From: Ruegeria arenilitoris
GTDB lineage: Bacteria; Pseudomonadota; Alphaproteobacteria; Rhodobacterales; Rhodobacteraceae
Assembly: GCF_013035315.1 (NCBI RefSeq)
Contig: NZ_WQHP01000005.1
Location: 258,001-322,000 of the forward strand
DNA length: 64,000 bases
Direction of reading: 5' to 3'
Below the pieces are notes generated by a model. The model did not search any database and had not been told where the DNA came from. It saw only the letters and a program-made list of their open reading frames with translations. A program made the position numbers and the translations under genes. Shown here in pieces: positions 1 through 27,542 of this stretch (positions are counted from its first letter, which is position 1; the number at the start of each line of letters is the position of its first letter).

Positions 1-1
1 C

Positions 2-811
2 CTTATTCCCCTGATCGCCCTGTCACTGATGACGGTTCTGAGCGCCTGCGCCACGCGCCCACCCGAAGGCGCGCCGCCGAGTCAGGTCTTTGACCCCTAC
101 GAACGGAACAACCGCGGCGTTCACAAGTTCAATCTGGGCGTCGACCGCTTTCTGTTCCGCCCGGCCTCGAAAGGGTACGTAAAGATCGTGCCCGATCCGA
201 TGGTGACCAGCTTTAACAACTTTGCTGAAAACCTGACGATGCCCGGCCAGGCGCTGGACTATCTGCTGCAGGGAAATATCAAGCAATCGGGCAATGCGTT
301 GTTGCGGTTCGTAATCAATTCGACCGTTGGCGGCTTGGGGCTATCGGCCCCCGCGGACGAACTGGATCTGCCGCCTGTCGACACGGATTTCGGTGAAACC
401 CTGCATGTCTGGGGCGTCGGCGAAGGCGCTTATGTCGAGCTGCCATTTTACGGCCCCTCAACCCAGCGCGATGCGATTGGCGTTGTGGTCAACCTCTTCT
501 CGAACCCGATCAACTTTACGCCGGTCCGCCCGGTCGACAATATCGGCGTCTATGCCGAGGTTGTCCGCCGCATGGGAGACCGAGGACGGTTCTCTGACAC
601 CGTTGACTCGATCCTGTATGAAAGTGCCGACAGTTACGCCCAGGCGCGCACCATTTACATACAAAATCGCCGCTTTGAACTGGCGAGGGACGATGAAGAA
701 ACCTATCTGGGATTGTATGATGACCCCTATGCCGATATCGGAACCGACCCTGTCAGGGACCCCTACCTAGACCCATACGAGGACCCCTATGAGGACCCCT
801 ATGCCGAGTAA
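2..811 (+). CDS. mlaA: MlaA (VacJ) family outer-membrane lipoprotein, 5' end outside window
   Basis: Outer-membrane lipoprotein of the Mla system, which takes mislocalised phospholipid from the outer leaflet and hands it to a periplasmic carrier. The reading frame is open to the left edge, so the start codon lies outside the window. The visible part begins inside a hydrophobic signal peptide and reaches a lipobox LSAC, with the acylated Cys codon at 47-49. Family hallmarks follow: DPYERNNRGVHKFN early in the mature protein, then GLGLSAPADELDLPP and DFGETLHVWGV. The last 30 residues form an acidic tail with repeated DPY units that is not part of the family core. The stop overlaps the start of mlaC, so the two are probably co-transcribed and translationally coupled. 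Confidence 0.93.
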   Translation, partial: LIPLIALSLMTVLSACATRPPEGAPPSQVFDPYERNNRGVHKFNLGVDRFLFRPASKGYVKIVPDPMVTSFNNFAENLTMPGQALDYLLQGNIKQSGNALLRFVINSTVGGLGLSAPADELDLPPVDTDFGETLHVWGVGEGAYVELPFYGPSTQRDAIGVVVNLFSNPINFTPVRPVDNIGVYAEVVRRMGDRGRFSDTVDSILYESADSYAQARTIYIQNRRFELARDDEETYLGLYDDPYADIGTDPVRDPYLDPYEDPYEDPYAE

Positions 812-20041: not shown

Positions 20042-21493
20042 CTAACCGTGATAAGCCGCCACGGTTTTGAGCTGCGAGAAGCCATAGAGCGCCTCGAATC
20101 CCTTCTCGCGGCCGTGGCCGGACTTACCGACGCCGCCAAAGGGCAGTTCAACTCCTCCACCAGCGCCGTAATTGTTGATGAAAACCTGCCCCGAGCGGAG
20201 TTGCTTTGCCAGTCGCATCTGCCGCGCCCCGTCCCCGGTCCAGACGCTGGCGACTAGACCATAATCGGTGCTGTTGGCGATCTTCACTGCGTCTTCTTCG
20301 GTATCGAATGGGATCAGAACCTGAACTGGCCCAAAGATCTCATCCTTGGCCAGAACGTGATCTGGAGGGACATCTGCAAACAGCGTCGGCAGAACATAAG
20401 CCCCCTCGGACGGGGCGCCGTCCACGATGTGCCCTCGCCCGGCAACGGTTAAATCGGCACCCTTGGCCAGAAAACCTGAGACGGTGTCCTTTTGCCGGGC
20501 TGAAATCAAAGGACCGACGCGGAGGTCATCCTGCGCCGGACCAACAGTCAGCTCATCATAGGCTGCAGCCATGCGCTGTTTGACCTGATCATACACACCG
20601 CGTTGCACCAGAATGCGGGATGAGGCGGAACACGTCTGCCCGGCATTCTGAATCCCAGCGTTCACCAGAAACGGCAGGGCCGCGTCCAGATCGGCATCGT
20701 CAAACACCAACTGCGGTGACTTTCCCCCCAGCTCTAGCGTCACAGGCACTACGTTCCGCCCGGCCGCCTGTTGTACCAAGGCTCCGGTCGCGACTGACCC
20801 GGTGAACGAGATATGGTGCACGCCCGAATGACCCGACAATGCGGCTCCGGCCTCGGCCCCCAATCCGGGTACCACGTTCAGCGCCCCTGCGGGCAATCCG
20901 GCCTTTTGTGCCAAATGGGCAAAGGCGAGCGCTGTCAGACAGGCCTCTTCCGCGGGTTTCAGAACGCAGGCGTTGCCCATCGCCAATGCAGCGCCAACCG
21001 AACGGCCAATGATCTGCATGGGATAGTTCCACGGCACGATATGGCCCGTGACTCCGTGCGGTTCGCGCAGCGTGTAAACAGTGTAGCCGTCCAGATACGG
21101 GATCGTCTCACCCATGACTTTATCCGCAGCACCGCCGTAAAATTCGCAATACCGCGCCAGAGCCACAGCATCAGCCCGCGCTTGCGTCAGGGGTTTGCCC
21201 ACGTCCATCGCCTCAAGCTGGGCAAGGTCATCAACGCGTTCCAGAACCAGGTGCCCCAACCGTGTGAGGATACGGCCCCGCTCCAACGCGGTTTTACGGC
21301 CCCAATCTCCGTCCAGCGCAGCTTGGGCCGCATGAACTGCGGCGTCCACATCCTGCGCATCGCCGCGAGCAATCTGGCAAATCTCGGACCCGTCCGAGGG
21401 GTTGATCAAAGGCAATGTCTTTTTTTGAGCAGGCGCGACCCAGCTACCACCAATCAGACAAAGGCTGGGATCAAACCATAGAGGGCTGGGCAT
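20042..21493 (-). CDS. NAD(P)-dependent aldehyde dehydrogenase, last gene of a peptide/amine transport operon
   Basis: Aldehyde dehydrogenase superfamily member, 483 residues. Catalytic Glu lies in LELGGKSPQ, catalytic Cys in NAGQTCSASSR, and the C terminus has GVELPFGGVGKSGHGREKG. ATG at 21493 has AGGAG six bases upstream, better than the in-frame starts further out. It follows the transporter ATPase by 33 bases. Location suggests it oxidises an aldehyde formed from the imported compound, for example from an amine. The exact aldehyde is not known. Confidence 0.9.
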   Translation of the reverse strand: MPSPLWFDPSLCLIGGSWVAPAQKKTLPLINPSDGSEICQIARGDAQDVDAAVHAAQAALDGDWGRKTALERGRILTRLGHLVLERVDDLAQLEAMDVGKPLTQARADAVALARYCEFYGGAADKVMGETIPYLDGYTVYTLREPHGVTGHIVPWNYPMQIIGRSVGAALAMGNACVLKPAEEACLTALAFAHLAQKAGLPAGALNVVPGLGAEAGAALSGHSGVHHISFTGSVATGALVQQAAGRNVVPVTLELGGKSPQLVFDDADLDAALPFLVNAGIQNAGQTCSASSRILVQRGVYDQVKQRMAAAYDELTVGPAQDDLRVGPLISARQKDTVSGFLAKGADLTVAGRGHIVDGAPSEGAYVLPTLFADVPPDHVLAKDEIFGPVQVLIPFDTEEDAVKIANSTDYGLVASVWTGDGARQMRLAKQLRSGQVFINNYGAGGGVELPFGGVGKSGHGREKGFEALYGFSQLKTVAAYHG

Positions 21494-21526: not shown

Positions 21527-23125
21527 TTATGCGACGACTTTCCCGATTTCGGGCAATGTCGGCGCAGCGTTGATCAGGTCTTTGGTGTATTGATGCTGCG
21601 GGTCTGAGAAGACGGCATCCGTGCGCCCGTCTTCCACGATCTGGCCCGACCGCATTACCATAACGCGGTCGGTGATGGTGCGCACGACACTCAGGTCATG
21701 ACTGATGAACAGATAGGTCAAGTCGTAGGCCTCGCACAGCTCGACCAGCAGATCCAGGATCTGGGCGCGGACCGAGACGTCGAGGGCCGAGACCGCTTCG
21801 TCAAACAGGATCAATTCGGGCCGGATGATCAGGGCGCGCGCAATCGCAATGCGCTGTCTTTGCCCGCCCGAAAACTCGTGGATGTACTTCCCCATGTCAT
21901 CGGGGCTGAGACCCACGGCTGTCAGCATCTCGGCAATCCTGTCCTGCCGTTCCGAACCGGTGGGAGGCGTTTCCAGCAGGTGAAAGGGCTCGCTGATCAG
22001 GCGTGCAACGCGGTGACGTGGATTGAAACTGCCATAGGGGTCCTGAAACACCACCTGCATCTTGCGTCGCACGGCAAGATTAGCTTTGTGGCCCGAGAGT
22101 ACCGGTTGACCATCCAGGCGAATATCCCCGCCCTGCACCTCTTCGAGGCCCAAAATTGCCCGTGTTAGGGTCGATTTTCCACAACCAGACTCACCAACCA
22201 ACCCCAACCGTTCCCCGCGATTGAGCGTAAAGCTCACGTCATCGACTGCACGATGATGGCCCGGTGTGTCAAACAGGCCCTTGCGCGGCAATCGATAGTC
22301 GCGAACCACATTTGTCACCTCGAGCAAAGGTTTCGGTTGCCCGGGGACGGGCAGCGTTACCTGATGGCCCGAGGCTTCGAACAGCATGCGGGTATAGGGG
22401 TGCTGCATGTGGCGCAAAAGGTGGCTAGTCGCCCCGGATTCAACCACTTCGCCGTGACGCATGACGACGATCCGGTCGGCCATATCCGCCACCACGGCGA
22501 GGTCGTGGGTGATCATCAGCAGCCCCATGCCAAATTCGGTGACCAGCCCTTTCAGAAGATCAAGAATCTGCGCCTGCGTGGTGACATCCAGCGCCGTGGT
22601 CGGTTCATCCGCGATCAGCAGTTTGGGACGCAAGGCAATCGCCATAGCGATCACAACGCGCTGGCGCTGCCCCCCTGACAGTTCATGCGGAAAGCGGGAC
22701 AATGGGAACCGGTCCGGTGGAAGACCGACACGGGTCAGAACCTCTTCGGCGCGCGTACGGGCCTGCGGGCGCGGCATTGCCTTGTGGATCAGAATGGTCT
22801 CCATCACCTGATCGCCTATGGTCTTAACCGGGTTCAGTGCGGTCATCGGTTCCTGGAACACCATCCCGATCGCGGCCCCGCGCATGGCGCACATCTGATC
22901 CTCGGTTTGGCCCAACAGGTCCGTTTCGTTCAGCCGAATAGCACCATCTGTCTGCGCGCCGTTCGGCAGCAACTGCATCACCGCCAGAGCGGTCATCGAC
23001 TTGCCCGATCCGCTCTCACCGGTCACGGCCACAATCTCACCGGGCGCGATGGACAGGTTGACCTGTTTCAGAATATCCGCGCCGTGAATGGTCAGCGACA
23101 GGTTTTCGATCTGCAACAAGCTCAT
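21527..23125 (-). CDS. Fused dual-ATPase of a peptide/nickel-type ABC importer (DppD-DppF fusion)
   Basis: Energises the importer whose permeases lie directly upstream. 532 residues with two complete ABC domains. Domain 1 (about 1-260) has Walker A TGESGSGKS and Walker B LLIADEPTTALD. Domain 2 (about 275-520) has GESGCGKST, FSGGQRQRIA and LILFDEAVSALD. The ATG at 23123-23125 overlaps the permease stop as ATGA; longer frame extensions are just antisense-like sequence. Both active sites look intact. Fused ATPases are common in family 5 importers (YejF/GsiA type). Confidence 0.93.
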   Translation of the reverse strand: MSLLQIENLSLTIHGADILKQVNLSIAPGEIVAVTGESGSGKSMTALAVMQLLPNGAQTDGAIRLNETDLLGQTEDQMCAMRGAAIGMVFQEPMTALNPVKTIGDQVMETILIHKAMPRPQARTRAEEVLTRVGLPPDRFPLSRFPHELSGGQRQRVVIAMAIALRPKLLIADEPTTALDVTTQAQILDLLKGLVTEFGMGLLMITHDLAVVADMADRIVVMRHGEVVESGATSHLLRHMQHPYTRMLFEASGHQVTLPVPGQPKPLLEVTNVVRDYRLPRKGLFDTPGHHRAVDDVSFTLNRGERLGLVGESGCGKSTLTRAILGLEEVQGGDIRLDGQPVLSGHKANLAVRRKMQVVFQDPYGSFNPRHRVARLISEPFHLLETPPTGSERQDRIAEMLTAVGLSPDDMGKYIHEFSGGQRQRIAIARALIIRPELILFDEAVSALDVSVRAQILDLLVELCEAYDLTYLFISHDLSVVRTITDRVMVMRSGQIVEDGRTDAVFSDPQHQYTKDLINAAPTLPEIGKVVA

Positions 23126-23937
23126 GCGCGGGCCACCCTGATCCTGGGGTCCAACCAGTCGCGCAACCCGTCGCCCAGAAGGTTCAGGCCCAGCACTGTG
23201 ACAATGATTGCCAAACCGGGAATCAGAGCCAAATGCGGGGCAAAACTGACCATTGTTTGCGCGTCGGCCAGCATCCGGCCCCAGCTGGGCGTGGGCGGTT
23301 GCGCGCCTAGGCCGACATAGGACAGGCCCGCCTCGGCCAAAATGCCCAGGCTGAACTGGATGGTGCCCTGCACGATCAAAAGGTTCGCAACGTTGGGCAG
23401 GATGTGCTCGACCGAAATCCGCGCCGCCCCTTTGCCTGAAACACGGGCGGCAAGGATGAACTCCCTCTCCCACAGCGACAGAGCCGCGCCGCGCGTGATG
23501 CGGGCGAAAACGGGGATGTTGAAAATCCCGATGGCAATGATGGCATTAATTGCGCCTGCGCCGAAGACTGCGGTGATCAGGATGGCGATGACAAGCGAGG
23601 GGAAGGCAAAGATCAGATCATTGCCGCGCATGATCACCTCGTCCAGCCAGGAGCCTTTGCGCGCGGCCGCTGCCAGACCCAGTGGCACGCCCAGCGCCAT
23701 CCCGATGCCGACGGCCACCAGTGCCACCGCGATGGAGGTTCGTGCGCCGACCATGATCATCGAGAACATGTCGCGCCCGAAATGGTCCGTGCCGAACCAA
23801 TGCTCGGCATTTGGCGGCTGGAGCTTGCCGGGAATGTTCAGCGCCGCGTAATCGTATGGCGTCCAGACAAAGGATACCAATGCTGCCAACAAAACCAGCG
23901 AGGACAGGCACGCGCCAAGGATCAGGTTGCGGCTCAT
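23122..23937 (-). CDS. Peptide/amine ABC transporter permease (DppC type)
   Basis: Inner-membrane permease, 271 residues. The N terminus has an uncleaved membrane helix followed by the oligopeptide permease C motif region PPNAEHWFGTDHFGRDMFS, a clear DppC/OppC signature. The EAA loop is near ILAARVSGKGAARIS. It overlaps both neighbours by 4 bases (ATGA junctions), so the permeases and ATPase are tightly coupled. Confidence 0.93.
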   Translation of the reverse strand: MSRNLILGACLSSLVLLAALVSFVWTPYDYAALNIPGKLQPPNAEHWFGTDHFGRDMFSMIMVGARTSIAVALVAVGIGMALGVPLGLAAAARKGSWLDEVIMRGNDLIFAFPSLVIAILITAVFGAGAINAIIAIGIFNIPVFARITRGAALSLWEREFILAARVSGKGAARISVEHILPNVANLLIVQGTIQFSLGILAEAGLSYVGLGAQPPTPSWGRMLADAQTMVSFAPHLALIPGLAIIVTVLGLNLLGDGLRDWLDPRIRVARA

Positions 23938-24881
23938 GTGCGGCTCCTCAGACGCGGATCCACGGCGGCATAAGCCAAATCGACCAGAAAATTCACCGTG
24001 ATGACCGCAAACACCAGCAACATAACCACGGATTCAACAACGATCAGATCGCGTGCGGAAATGGCCTGAAAAACCAACCGCCCAAGGCCCGGAAGGTAGA
24101 AAACCTGCTCGATGATGATCGATCCGGCCAGCAGGAATGAAAACTGCAGCCCAATGATGGTCAGCACGGGGATCAGAGCATTGCGCACCCCGTGCCGCCA
24201 CAGCGCCTGACGCCGCGAAAGCCCTTTGGCGCGGGCGGTGCGCATGAAGTCCTCGCCTAGGATGTCCAACAATGATGACCGCATGACCCGCGCCAGAATG
24301 GCCGCTTGTGGCAAGGCTAATGCGATGGCGGGCAGTGTCAGAGAGTGAACCCCGGTCCAAAAGCCATTGTCCCAGCCCGCGAACCCTCCGGCATTGAACC
24401 AGCGCAGGTTGATCGCAAAGATCAGGACCAGCATCATGGCGAACCAGAAATTGGGCACCGCGATGCCCAGCTGCGTCGCCCCCATGACCGTCAGATCACC
24501 CGGCTTGCCCCGGCGCGCGGCAGCGTAGATGCCGACCGGAAATGCGATCACCGTCGACAGGGTCAGCGCATACAGCGCCAGCGGCAGTGAGACCCAAAGC
24601 CGATCTGCAATCATCTGCGAAACAGGCGTGCGATAAGTGTAGGACGTGCCGAAATCCCCCACCATCATGCCGCCAACCCAGTTGAAATACCGCTGCACTT
24701 TTGAGCCATCCAAACCCAACTCAGCCCGCAAGGCAGCCAGCGTATCTTCTTGCGCGTTGACGCCCAACATAAAGGACGCCGGATCACCCGGCGCGACCTC
24801 TATCACGGCGAAGATGACCACCGAGGCAACGGCCAGGCTGATCATCAGCGATATCAGACGTTTGAGGGCATAGCGAAGCAT
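23934..24881 (-). CDS. Peptide/amine ABC transporter permease (DppB type)
   Basis: Partner permease, about 315 residues, six predicted membrane helices. It begins MLRYALKRLISLM, typical of DppB. The conserved EVAPGDPASFMLG segment follows the first helix and DFMRTARAKGLSRRQALW is the cytoplasmic coupling loop. ATG at 24881 is preferred on family grounds; a GTG nine bases upstream (24890) would add three residues. No strong ribosome-binding site is visible at either. Confidence 0.9.
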   Translation of the reverse strand: MLRYALKRLISLMISLAVASVVIFAVIEVAPGDPASFMLGVNAQEDTLAALRAELGLDGSKVQRYFNWVGGMMVGDFGTSYTYRTPVSQMIADRLWVSLPLALYALTLSTVIAFPVGIYAAARRGKPGDLTVMGATQLGIAVPNFWFAMMLVLIFAINLRWFNAGGFAGWDNGFWTGVHSLTLPAIALALPQAAILARVMRSSLLDILGEDFMRTARAKGLSRRQALWRHGVRNALIPVLTIIGLQFSFLLAGSIIIEQVFYLPGLGRLVFQAISARDLIVVESVVMLLVFAVITVNFLVDLAYAAVDPRLRSRT

Positions 24882-24921
24882 TGGGGTCACGTTAGGGTCA
24901 GCTATGCCGCGGGTCCAGCAC

Positions 24922-25992
24922 CTATGGTGTCAGAAGATATGCAAATATCGCGTAACCCACGATTGCGGCATAGCCCAGGGGGTAGATCCACTTGATCGCG
25001 TAGTTATCCAGCATGCGGGCCCCATCTTCGCGGCCTGAGACCTTTAGCTTGCGTAGCGCGACGTTGAAAACGATCAGCGCTCCGGTTATCAGGAACATGC
25101 ACTGCAGCACGAAATCCAGAAAGGTCAGGTAACCAAGCTTTGGTAAATCGGCAGAGATGGCCCAGTTAAACGCGACGAAGACCAGCAGGTTGCCGCCCGC
25201 AATCTCGATCCGCCTCCGATATTCGTCGAGGAAAAACAGCGCCCAACCCACGGTGATCAGCACCAGCATCGGAAGGAAGACGCGGATGACGTAATAGGTC
25301 AGATGCCTGTGACCTTCGAAGATTAATGAAACCTGATCGCTCCGCTGACCCGACAATCCGATGACCTGCGATCTTTCCAGTCGCGGATTATCGAGAATCC
25401 ACTCTTCCTCGCCCAGCATATCCCCAAGGCCCGAGGACTCCTCCAATGGATAATAGGATACGAAGTCCGACGGAAAAACCGAGACGACCTCGAAATGGAA
25501 CTCCTGCGTGTCGAACGGGTATTTTCGGAAATCGAAATGAGGGGCCTGCAAAGTCAGCGACGATTTCTCGACATAGCGAACACGCCCATCGTGGCGCACT
25601 GCAGCCGCGGATTCGTGAATCCATTTGTTGGTCTGCTGGTTGTGGATTACAAAGGCCGGAACAATCGTTCCAATTTTTGCCGCGTGATCCGCCAGGTCCG
25701 GCGGATAAAAGACCCTAAAGTCACGCCCCAGGTCCTGGGGATCAAAGGCCAGCGCCGGGTCCGTCCACTCAACACGCAGAACAACTACGGCGCCGTAGTT
25801 TTCAGCCTTCTGGTCAACGCTGGTGATCTGATCAATCTGGATTCCGATGCCGACATCCAGCGGGTTTTCCGGAGTACCAACTAGCGCATCCAACCGGCCA
25901 TCCAGCGTGTTTTGCGCCCCAACACTTGGCACCGTCGTTATGGTCGAAACAACGGTTATACTGATGAGAAATAGGGCGCGAAACAACGACAT
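24922..25992 (-). CDS. Pentameric ligand-gated ion channel (prokaryotic Cys-loop receptor family)
   Basis: Homologue of GLIC/ELIC, 356 residues. A Sec signal peptide (to about residue 26) is followed by a beta-rich extracellular domain of about 200 residues. The cysteine-less equivalent of the Cys-loop is visible as FRKYPFDTQEFHFEV, with its invariant Tyr-Pro-Phe-Asp core. Four membrane helices follow; M1 contains RVFLPMLVLITVGWALFFL, preceded by a Tyr-rich junction, and M2 follows the RRRIEIAGGN link. It would form a pentamer in the inner membrane with its ligand site in the periplasm. It lies between the binding protein (62 bases upstream) and the permeases (40 bases downstream) on the same strand. 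Start is ATG 25992 or the adjacent GTG. Confidence 0.92.
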   Translation of the reverse strand: MSLFRALFLISITVVSTITTVPSVGAQNTLDGRLDALVGTPENPLDVGIGIQIDQITSVDQKAENYGAVVVLRVEWTDPALAFDPQDLGRDFRVFYPPDLADHAAKIGTIVPAFVIHNQQTNKWIHESAAAVRHDGRVRYVEKSSLTLQAPHFDFRKYPFDTQEFHFEVVSVFPSDFVSYYPLEESSGLGDMLGEEEWILDNPRLERSQVIGLSGQRSDQVSLIFEGHRHLTYYVIRVFLPMLVLITVGWALFFLDEYRRRIEIAGGNLLVFVAFNWAISADLPKLGYLTFLDFVLQCMFLITGALIVFNVALRKLKVSGREDGARMLDNYAIKWIYPLGYAAIVGYAIFAYLLTP

Positions 25993-26021
25993 CACAAAAC
26001 GTATTCACAAACAGTGGGAAA

Positions 26022-26047
26022 CAGGGGCCCGTTCCAGCGGACCCCTG
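26022..26047 (-). terminator. Intra-operon hairpin after the peptide-binding-protein gene
   Basis: Stem CAGGGGcCCG / CGGaCCCCTG with one mismatch and a 6-base loop, located between the binding-protein stop and the ion-channel start. It has no T-run. As in the sugar operon, it may favour high expression of the binding protein over downstream genes. Confidence 0.5.
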
Positions 26048-26054
26048 CCCCGGA

Positions 26055-27542
26055 TCATTCAGACCAGCTGATCTGAGTTAGGTCGATTGCCGCCGTAGGT
26101 GCGTTTGTCCAAAGACCCTGAACACCGGCCTTGGCGACACCCAGTTTGGCCAGTTGGAACAGGTACCCATTAACGAAATCGCTTGAGATCAGGCGCTGCG
26201 CCTCACCCAACAGGCGCGTACGCTCTTCCGGGTCGGTGGTCGAATTCAACGTATCCATCAGCGCCTGAAAGTCGGTACTGTCATACTGGAAATAATAGTC
26301 GGGCCGGGCATAAATGCCGATATCCATCGGTTCGGTATGGCTGACGATGGTCAGACCGAAATCCTTGCCCTTGAACACCGACTCAAGCCACTGGGCCCAT
26401 TCCACGTTGATAATTTCTGCGTTGATCCCGACCTCGGCCAGTTGGGCGGCGACAATCTCTCCGCCGCGCCGCGCATAGGATGGGGGTGGCAGGTGCAGCG
26501 TTGTATCAAACCCGTCCGCATAACCCGCATCCGCCAGCAACTGGGCCGCCTTCTTCGGGTCATAGGTCGAGTTTCCGGTCAGATCGACATAGGCCGGATG
26601 GTGTGGCGCAAAATGCGTCCCGATGGGCGTACCATAGCCGAACATCGCACCATCAATGATGGCCTGACGATCAATGGCATGGGCCAATGCTTCACGGACC
26701 TGAATGTCATCGAAGGGGGGCTGTTTGTTGTTGGTCGACAGAATAGTTTCCCCTTCCGTCGAACCGACCAGAACCTGAAAGCGGGGATCGGCCTCGAACT
26801 GGGGCAGGTTCTCGGGTGCCGGGAAGTTGTCAAAAACGTCGATGTCTTCGGCCATCATGGCAGCAAACGCGGCCGTCGGGTCCGAGATGAATTTGAACGT
26901 TGCAGTCTCTAACGCAGGCTGGTCGCCCCAATAATCCGGGTTGCGGTTCAGCGTGATGCTGTCGCCCTGCACCCACTCGCCAAAGGTGAAAGCCCCTGTC
27001 CCGACAGGGTTGGTTTTGATGTTCTCGATGCTTTCCGGCGCAACAATCACCGCGTCGCCCCAAGCGAGGTTGAACAGGAAATTCCCGTTTGGTTCAGACA
27101 GCGTCACTTTGACGGTCAGTGGATCGACCACATCGACACTTTCGATCCCGGCAAACAGAGCCTTCTGCGCATTTGCGCTGTCATCGGATCGCGCGCGGTC
27201 CAGGCTGAACTTGACGTCCTCGGCATCCATCGTTGTGCCGTCGTGGAATGTCACGCCATCGTGCAGCTTGAAGGTATAGACGGTTCCGTCATCCGAGATT
27301 TCCCAGCTTTCGGCCAGACCGGGCACAACCGATCCATCACCCATAAAGCGGGTCAGACCTTCGAAGATATTGGTATAGACCACCGAATCGATAGCCTGCG
27401 CTGCAGCGCTGGTCGGATCCAGATGCGGCGGCTCAAGCTGCATCGCGATGGTGATGTCAGATTTGGCCAAAGCCTGCGTTGCAAACAGGCTGGCACTGAC
27501 CGCCAGCACCGAGGCAAAGGATCGAAATACCTGCTTTGTCAT
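26055..27542 (-). CDS. ABC transporter substrate-binding protein, family 5 (peptide/nickel/amine)
   Basis: Periplasmic binding protein, 495 residues, first gene of the leftward importer operon. A Sec signal peptide MTKQVFRSFASVLAVSASL ends near ALAKSD. The mature protein has the family 5 features AMQLEPPHLDPTSAAAQA near the start, and TVYTFKLHDGVTFHDG and DAEDVKFSLDRA further on. ATG at 27542 has GGGGAGAT six bases upstream; the longer frame has no such signal. Family 5 proteins bind peptides, nickel chelates, opines or other small solutes, so the ligand is open. Divergent from panB. Confidence 0.93.
   Translation of the reverse strand: MTKQVFRSFASVLAVSASLFATQALAKSDITIAMQLEPPHLDPTSAAAQAIDSVVYTNIFEGLTRFMGDGSVVPGLAESWEISDDGTVYTFKLHDGVTFHDGTTMDAEDVKFSLDRARSDDSANAQKALFAGIESVDVVDPLTVKVTLSEPNGNFLFNLAWGDAVIVAPESIENIKTNPVGTGAFTFGEWVQGDSITLNRNPDYWGDQPALETATFKFISDPTAAFAAMMAEDIDVFDNFPAPENLPQFEADPRFQVLVGSTEGETILSTNNKQPPFDDIQVREALAHAIDRQAIIDGAMFGYGTPIGTHFAPHHPAYVDLTGNSTYDPKKAAQLLADAGYADGFDTTLHLPPPSYARRGGEIVAAQLAEVGINAEIINVEWAQWLESVFKGKDFGLTIVSHTEPMDIGIYARPDYYFQYDSTDFQALMDTLNSTTDPEERTRLLGEAQRLISSDFVNGYLFQLAKLGVAKAGVQGLWTNAPTAAIDLTQISWSE

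Follow-up and report, generated by a model that had tools for sequence, protein, structure and literature searches.

To our knowledge, the natural roles and ligands of bacterial pentameric ligand-gated ion channels (pLGICs) are largely open, and gene neighborhood is the usual clue to them. Two solved channels are the nearest described relatives of the protein analyzed here: sTeLIC, a pLGIC from a Tevnia endosymbiont (PDB 6fl9 and 9ex6), which is its closest match in both sequence and fold, and DeCLIC (PDB 6v4a and 7q3g). The passages available from the sTeLIC paper (PMC11988449) name W75, L93, and Y104 as vestibule residues and report that the pocket binds bromo-aryl ligands. For DeCLIC, glutamates E347, E479, E480, and E481 form the calcium site according to the accessible part of PMC9897478, whose authors state that their own data leave unsettled whether the site is functional or structural; a later paper, in the excerpt available (PMC12664993), finds E347 in a tight calcium site, whereas E480 belongs to a weaker site only. 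With regard to genomic setting, the available passages of Tasneem et al. (PMC549065) describe a predicted operon of a pLGIC gene and a stand-alone gene of the PBP-II superfamily, and propose chemoreceptor roles. Among the search results listed, Tasneem et al. was the single match on a pLGIC in such an arrangement, and the words "operon" and "Ruegeria" are absent from the main text of Jaiteh et al. (PMC4795631).

We analyzed a 64,000-nucleotide stretch of the Ruegeria arenilitoris genome (the window), in which the first-pass annotation had proposed a pLGIC gene inside an importer operon. The proposed coordinates and strand were borne out, and Pfam, the matches to sTeLIC and DeCLIC, and the fold all agree with the assignment (Table 1). 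Neur_chan_LBD (PF02931) matched the protein with an E value of 2.9e-14 (53.5 bits against a cutoff of 26), no Pfam transmembrane-domain family was listed for it at E 0.001, and the NCBIfam channel models gave matches below their cutoffs only (93 against 280 bits and 91 against 500). In a sequence search the best solved relatives were sTeLIC (4.5e-72) and DeCLIC (3.4e-69), which align with residues 43 or 48 to 343 or 353 of the channel, through M3-M4. The AlphaFold2 model (mean pLDDT 79, pTM 0.65) starts with an N-terminal helix and a linker of low confidence, followed by a domain rich in beta strands and by four long helices, and sTeLIC structures were its top Foldseek match (E 1.2e-34, 40% identity). 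Taken together, the model, the Foldseek match, and the alignment place four transmembrane helices after the beta domain in a pLGIC fold, as had been read from the sequence along with a signal peptide, which we also recognized by eye. The YPFD core of a Cys-loop that had been noted is present, and its P160, F161, and D162 (Cys-loop/Pro-loop core) occur in all 41 aligned proteins (34 channels from the genomic slot described below and 7 rows from outside it), but the flanking cysteines are absent, the sole cysteine being residue 299, within M3. The protein is the single match to its family in its own genome, and the closest named genome is that of Ruegeria sp. R14_0 (97% identity). Homology, fold, and the ratio of nonsynonymous to synonymous change (dN/dS; see below) ruled out both a chance open reading frame and a pseudogene. 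The reading frame, which spans 24922-25995 from a GTG start and has an alternative ATG at 25992, encodes a genuine, intact, and conserved pLGIC of the sTeLIC/DeCLIC branch.

Table 1. The channel gene and its surroundings in the window (nucleotide positions count from the first base of the window; parts of the channel are given in residues)
Feature	Position	Strand	Basis
pLGIC, sTeLIC/DeCLIC branch, 357 aa	24922..25995	(-)	Open reading frame, Pfam, sequence matches, AlphaFold2, Foldseek
Channel signal peptide	residues ~1-28		By eye
Channel extracellular domain	residues ~43-226		
Channel helices M1-M4	residues ~232-355		
Family 5 extracytoplasmic solute-binding protein (SBP), 495 aa	26055..27542	(-)	SBP_bac_5 PF00496, 2.5e-94
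Importer permease B	23934..24890	(-)	PF00528/PF19300 (BPD_transp_1)
Importer permease C, 4-base overlap with permease B	23122..23937	(-)	PF00528
Double-domain ABC ATPase	21527..23125	(-)	PF00005, two stretches
Aldehyde dehydrogenase, last gene of the run	20042..21493	(-)	PF00171, 4.8e-154
Variable slot between binding protein and permease B, filled here by the channel	24891..26054	(-)	Comparison of loci
Predicted strong hairpin directly 3' of the binding-protein stop, before the channel	26018..26051	(-)	Folding prediction for the 62-base gap, -27.8 kcal/mol

Residue counts were made over the same 41 proteins. Residues E65, E196, E197, and E198 of the channel, which align with DeCLIC E347, E479, E480, and E481, are each present in 41 of 41. 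The pore position 2' is acidic throughout (E264 in the window channel; E or D in 41 of 41), residue 258 is acidic in 40 of 41, and the leucine at 9' (L271) is invariant. At 16', tryptophan is found in all 34 slot channels, in contrast to phenylalanine in all 7 non-slot rows, sTeLIC, and DeCLIC; the 16' tryptophan is a marker of the slot lineage and could form a tighter upper gate. The sTeLIC vestibule residues W75, L93, and Y104 align with V112, A130, and Y141 of the channel. No slot sequence (0 of 34) has tryptophan at the first of these positions, where V, L, I, M, T, A, or P occurs instead, and the third is Y or F in the 34. Thus, the aryl-ligand residues of sTeLIC, which mark a ligand site and do not define the branch, are not retained as a set in the slot lineage, and since the vestibular tryptophan is absent, the amine modulators of sTeLIC should not be carried over to it. 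Conservation of the DeCLIC calcium-site glutamates makes divalent cations or pH better first stimuli to consider than the cargo of the importer. Seawater contains about 10 mM calcium, which would keep a DeCLIC-like channel shut, and calcium alone is therefore an unlikely natural trigger.

The importer genes surrounding the channel were then compared with known transport systems. The reported spacings of 62 and 40 bases hold when measured from the binding-protein stop codon (26055-26057) to the channel ATG and from the end of the channel gene to the permease B ATG at 24881; the latter gap falls to 31 bases if GTG 24890 is the start. The ATPase start at 23125 was picked from the conserved 532-aa form. 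Gaps among permease B, permease C, ATPase, and dehydrogenase are at most about 125 bases in channel loci (Tropicibacter-type) and about 205 bases in a decayed Jhaorihella locus (L113). The run is flanked by panB-panC-glpK and by a nicotinate phosphoribosyltransferase gene, both on the opposite strand. The nearest solved chain to the binding protein is YliB (3.8e-51), with mixed PDB neighbors. NCBIfam matches of the binding protein, to glutathione, nickel, dipeptide, and other systems, all lie below cutoff, as do those of the permeases, which leaves the earlier description as an amine importer unsupported. The Ruegeria pomeroyi locus tags SPO0097-0101 were taken as putative counterparts of the operon; a search of the R. 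pomeroyi literature by these tags did not find the importer substrate. In the literature excerpts available, SPO0098, the putative ortholog of the importer ATPase, is listed as a peptide/opine/nickel transporter ATPase, and polyamine uptake in R. pomeroyi is assigned to potFGHI. We saw no indication that the channel ligand is an amine or is made by the aldehyde dehydrogenase. A GNAT domain of about 480 bases (Pfam 1.7e-05) is fused ahead of the operon aldehyde dehydrogenase in genome G036 (L229:12428-14344).

Channel orthologs are present in 38 of 54 Ruegeria genomes. In the 394 sampled genomes of the family, at most 28 have any channel match, many of them distant, and 233 have the binding protein (E 1e-200 or better); any pLGIC is encoded in 7 of the 398 genomes sampled from the phylum, a count that includes the genome of the window. 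The binding-protein gene adjoins the channel in all 38 channel-bearing Ruegeria genomes, and permease B lies on the other side in 37 of them. Both neighbors were present in 30 of 30 genus loci with 1.5-kb flanks, the remaining eight genomes being read on L082-L085, L087, L089, L104 (matched by contig coordinates), and L229. Permease B in Ruegeria sp. HKCCSA071 (L083) is displaced by 6.5 kb, behind genes that by eye resemble sarcosine oxidase; the insert between channel and permease (L083:11065-17620) also has a GlxA-like regulator, again by eye. At three Leisingera loci (L088, L090, and L092), a gene resembling histone deacetylases lies between channel and permease on the opposite strand. Twelve family genomes outside Ruegeria carry the channel at 55% identity or more, and it sits in the slot in 10; the contig ends in one of the others (G272), and in G259 the gene is elsewhere. 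In trees built for 44 named loci, the channel tree has 12 strongly supported splits, of which 10 recur with strong support in a tree of the operon (permeases, ATPase, and dehydrogenase) and 1 conflicts with it; without regard to support, 19 of 41 splits were common. The sharing of 10 of 12 strong splits indicates that the pairing of channel and operon is old, and its extent across genera rules out one recent insertion. One channel lineage has largely been inherited with the operon. The panBC-glpK and nicotinate phosphoribosyltransferase flanks are kept in most loci as well, and general synteny therefore explains much of this co-inheritance. Besides its slot channel, genome G034 has a second, divergent pLGIC (L258; 29% identity), which adjoins a mechanosensitive-channel gene and a HupE/UreJ-type gene.

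Relatives of the channel were also found outside the slot. No importer of the window type is present in the available stretch around those at 45 to 59% identity (L233, L231, L232, L105, L106, and L250). For the neighbors of relatives, 20 selected proteins, one of them from L253, were scanned with Pfam and the others were judged by eye. The closest non-slot relative (G259, 58%) lies beside an NYN-domain gene. At 45 to 50% identity, the relative in Shimia (G152) is near bipA and alaS (by eye), a second copy in G265 is near a histidine kinase gene, and that of G695 is near an MFS gene; the Aliiruegeria contig (L105) starts just ahead of its channel. Genes for a membrane urate oxidase and an Omp85 protein adjoin the distant pLGIC of G442, with similar-looking neighbors in G130 and G291. 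At L240, L241, and L243, a divergent pLGIC group has a membrane urate-oxidase gene on one side and an Omp85 gene on the other (Pfam on L240), the latter followed by a very long TamB-like reading frame. Other distant pLGICs adjoin a TAXI-DctM transporter (G232), a PhnD-like binding protein and a hybrid kinase (G455), or stand-alone double Cache proteins (G479 and G738). Counted over 23 other pLGIC loci, two are beside an SBP of another family (TAXI-DctM and PhnD-like) and one is beside a stand-alone double Cache protein, as is the pLGIC of L253, a locus outside the 23; SBP adjacency in 2 of 23 may be due to chance in SBP-rich genomes. The row of TAXI binding protein, DctM permease, and pLGIC on L242 (3336-7861) comes a few kilobases after an importer ATPase of the window type (64% identity). 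Close relatives at 41 to 47% identity were also seen on contigs labeled as metagenome-assembled genomes of Methanofollis and an ANME-2 archaeon (L112 and L115), for which a binning error is possible.

The binding-protein gene is retained in all 16 channel-less Ruegeria genomes (in G045 partially, up to an assembly gap). Across the 54 genomes the slot holds the channel in 38, a Sel1/TPR-like gene in 9, an SH3 gene in 4, nothing in 2, and an assembly gap in 1. The Sel1/TPR-like occupant is a secreted protein of 339 residues, typed by eye, for which no Pfam match was obtained; the bacterial SH3 protein is encoded on the reverse strand, convergently. No match to the Sel1-like gene was found in 43 of the 54 genomes. 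Among the other 11 it lies in the slot in nine and elsewhere in G036, where the channel fills the slot, and the match in G051 reaches just 27%. We surveyed the slot in 76 of the 233 binding-protein genomes of the family, a nonrandom set (two Ruegeria; the 30 best by score and 46 further down), and found a channel in 13 (two of them broken, including one where the contig ends), fewer than 250 bases in 22, other content in 26, no permease within reach in 14 (with the binding protein likewise not found in L217), and a contig end in 1. The 26 intervals with other content span about 490 to 3,470 bases, and most hold foreign genes. Histone-deacetylase-family genes occupy nine (L168, L171, L173, L181, L182, L189, L203, L213, and L214), on the opposite strand, and cupin genes occupy six, as well as occurring in two channel-bearing loci. 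Further occupants include a tannase, an ECF sigma factor, a sodium/calcium exchanger, and a nucleotide cyclase and, by eye, a GMC-type oxidoreductase and LysR-like and TetR-like regulators, some on the opposite strand; a few intervals, L185 and L209 among them, showed no convincing gene. The importer thus stands without a slot channel in 48 of 76 family genomes (22 empty and 26 other), a few of which have a distant pLGIC elsewhere (below 30% identity). On a quick binding-protein tree of 91 rows, the channel state changes at least 17 times, 5 of these changes being forced by strongly supported branches. These data demonstrate that the slot is a high-turnover site for unrelated genes. The conservation of gene order that the first-pass annotation had proposed to examine across Rhodobacteraceae is kept where the channel exists (38 of 38; 10 of 12 splits), but the importer is often channel-free and the slot is variable. 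Presence of one does not imply the other in either direction, as channel-less Ruegeria keep the binding-protein gene and channels occur outside such importers.

The hairpin in Table 1 was evaluated against this range of occupants. Counting hairpins with a score of at least 20, and leaving out seven loci identical over 380 bases, we found that 41 of 50 channel loci have one 3' of the binding-protein stop, as do 14 of 15 loci with other content, 5 of 6 empty loci, and 3 of 4 SH3 loci; none of 9 Sel1-like loci has it, and there the next gene begins within about 40 bases. Since it is found in channel, other, empty, and SH3 loci, the hairpin goes with the binding-protein gene and not with the channel, and its place behind that gene in most loci makes the slot resemble a message boundary. 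New genes seem to arrive behind this boundary, with the least disturbance to the importer. The hairpin itself may attenuate or stabilize the message.

If the channel worked together with the importer, it would open on the solute that the importer carries, whether that solute is free or handed over by the binding protein, and its ion flux would report that the solute is there, a role along the lines that Tasneem et al. proposed where a PBP-II gene adjoins a pLGIC gene. Long co-inheritance in one place is consistent with such a partnership, as are the two other pLGIC loci beside SBPs of different families and the published PBP-II neighbors, for which the available passages of Tasneem et al. (PMC549065) propose a role. 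However, channel-free importers in all 16 channel-less Ruegeria genomes and in 48 of the 76 surveyed, the use of the same site by unrelated genes, the non-slot relatives that lack such an importer, and the conserved flanks, through which general synteny accounts for much of the association, lead us to regard the partnership as doubtful. A conserved-looking operon here hides rapid gene turnover, so that neighboring genes are a poor guide to a shared ligand, and because the slot revolves among unrelated genes, the importer alone does not reveal what the channel senses. The cargo is a possible ligand but not one that we favor, the inference to it being weak. We consider it unlikely that the channel is a dedicated sensor of importer cargo, perhaps loaded by the binding protein, in a slot that serves for swapping sensory or protective accessories; were this true, a natural ligand would be in hand for a prokaryotic pLGIC, and it would belong to a nutrient pathway. 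The slot might also be a modular accessory position in which the channel, Sel1-like, cupin, and other genes are interchangeable for one importer task, such as shielding the cell from envelope or osmotic stress while uptake proceeds. By eye, several occupants appear to be secreted, and two kinds of gene are found repeatedly, cupins (6 of 26 and 2 channel loci) and the histone-deacetylase family (9 of 26), but with no common theme among occupants that extend to a sigma factor, a tannase, and putative LysR- and TetR-like regulators, some on the opposite strand, we find a shared task quite improbable.

Selection on the channel was estimated from 33 loci. The median dN/dS was 0.102 (dS defined in 490 of 528 pairs); the binding protein gave 0.059, permease B 0.044, and the ATPase 0.081, all of these values being rough because synonymous differences are close to saturation. 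The channel protein diverges faster than its operon neighbors, its minimum of pN/pS (0.094) lies in M1-M3, and no internal stop was found in any of the 38 Ruegeria orthologs. The channel is under purifying selection, which is strictest in M1-M3. That it is a decaying passenger with no present function in the window strain is highly improbable, since broken slot copies in Jhaorihella (L113 and G162 are one locus) and in G348 (where the contig ends), internal stops in a related copy outside the slot in G060, and the faster protein divergence are outweighed by the 38 stop-free orthologs, a dN/dS of about 0.1, and the invariant calcium-site and pore residues.

The reading that we favor, and judge probable on balance, is that of a long-resident DeCLIC/sTeLIC-like channel in a high-turnover slot, without an obligatory link to importer cargo. 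From homology, we infer a homopentameric, ion-conducting, and probably cation-selective channel of the inner membrane that would work like sTeLIC and DeCLIC, with its sensing domain facing the periplasm. The extracellular domain would read the ionic or small-molecule state of the periplasm; the stimulus may be a divalent cation bound at the subunit interface, and perhaps pH as well, and the response would be opening of the pore, presumably gated by the leucine at 9' and the tryptophan at 16'. This channel would reside just past the hairpin that ends the binding-protein gene, as one lineage long kept in Ruegeria and its relatives that was apparently lost or replaced repeatedly while the importer was retained. 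Several points run counter to the favored reading. Channels of the slot clade are very rarely found elsewhere and track the operon in trees, the spacing of 31 to 40 bases between channel and permease fits co-transcription, and the pLGIC loci adjacent to SBP or Cache genes could mean that cooperation with periplasmic binding proteins is common among pLGICs. Close relatives that share the importer with or without the channel provide a natural experiment on the role of the channel, which renders the idea of coupling testable. The locus places a relative of animal neurotransmitter receptors in a nutrient-importer operon of marine Ruegeria.

In comparison with the known channels, the Ruegeria protein has in common with sTeLIC a single extracellular domain, four helices, an LGEEEW stretch, and the 2' acid, and departs from it at 16', where tryptophan replaces phenylalanine. 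All four calcium-site glutamates and the 9' leucine are shared with DeCLIC, but the channel lacks the N-terminal double jelly-roll domain of DeCLIC and again has tryptophan for phenylalanine at 16'. GLIC belongs to the same superfamily (4.4e-24) and is far more distant (about 22% identity in Foldseek); ELIC, of the same superfamily, is absent among the 60 best sequence matches listed. The family of the neighboring binding protein, SBP_bac_5, is one that we take to belong to the PBP-II superfamily. The locus thereby resembles the predicted operon in the available passages of Tasneem et al. (PMC549065), with a pLGIC beside a PBP-II superfamily binding protein, as do the TAXI, PhnD, and Cache loci described above. 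It differs in comprising a complete ABC importer operon and a hypervariable slot, which those passages do not discuss. A pLGIC beside a PBP-II gene was therefore already reported by Tasneem et al., and the Ruegeria channel is a further case.
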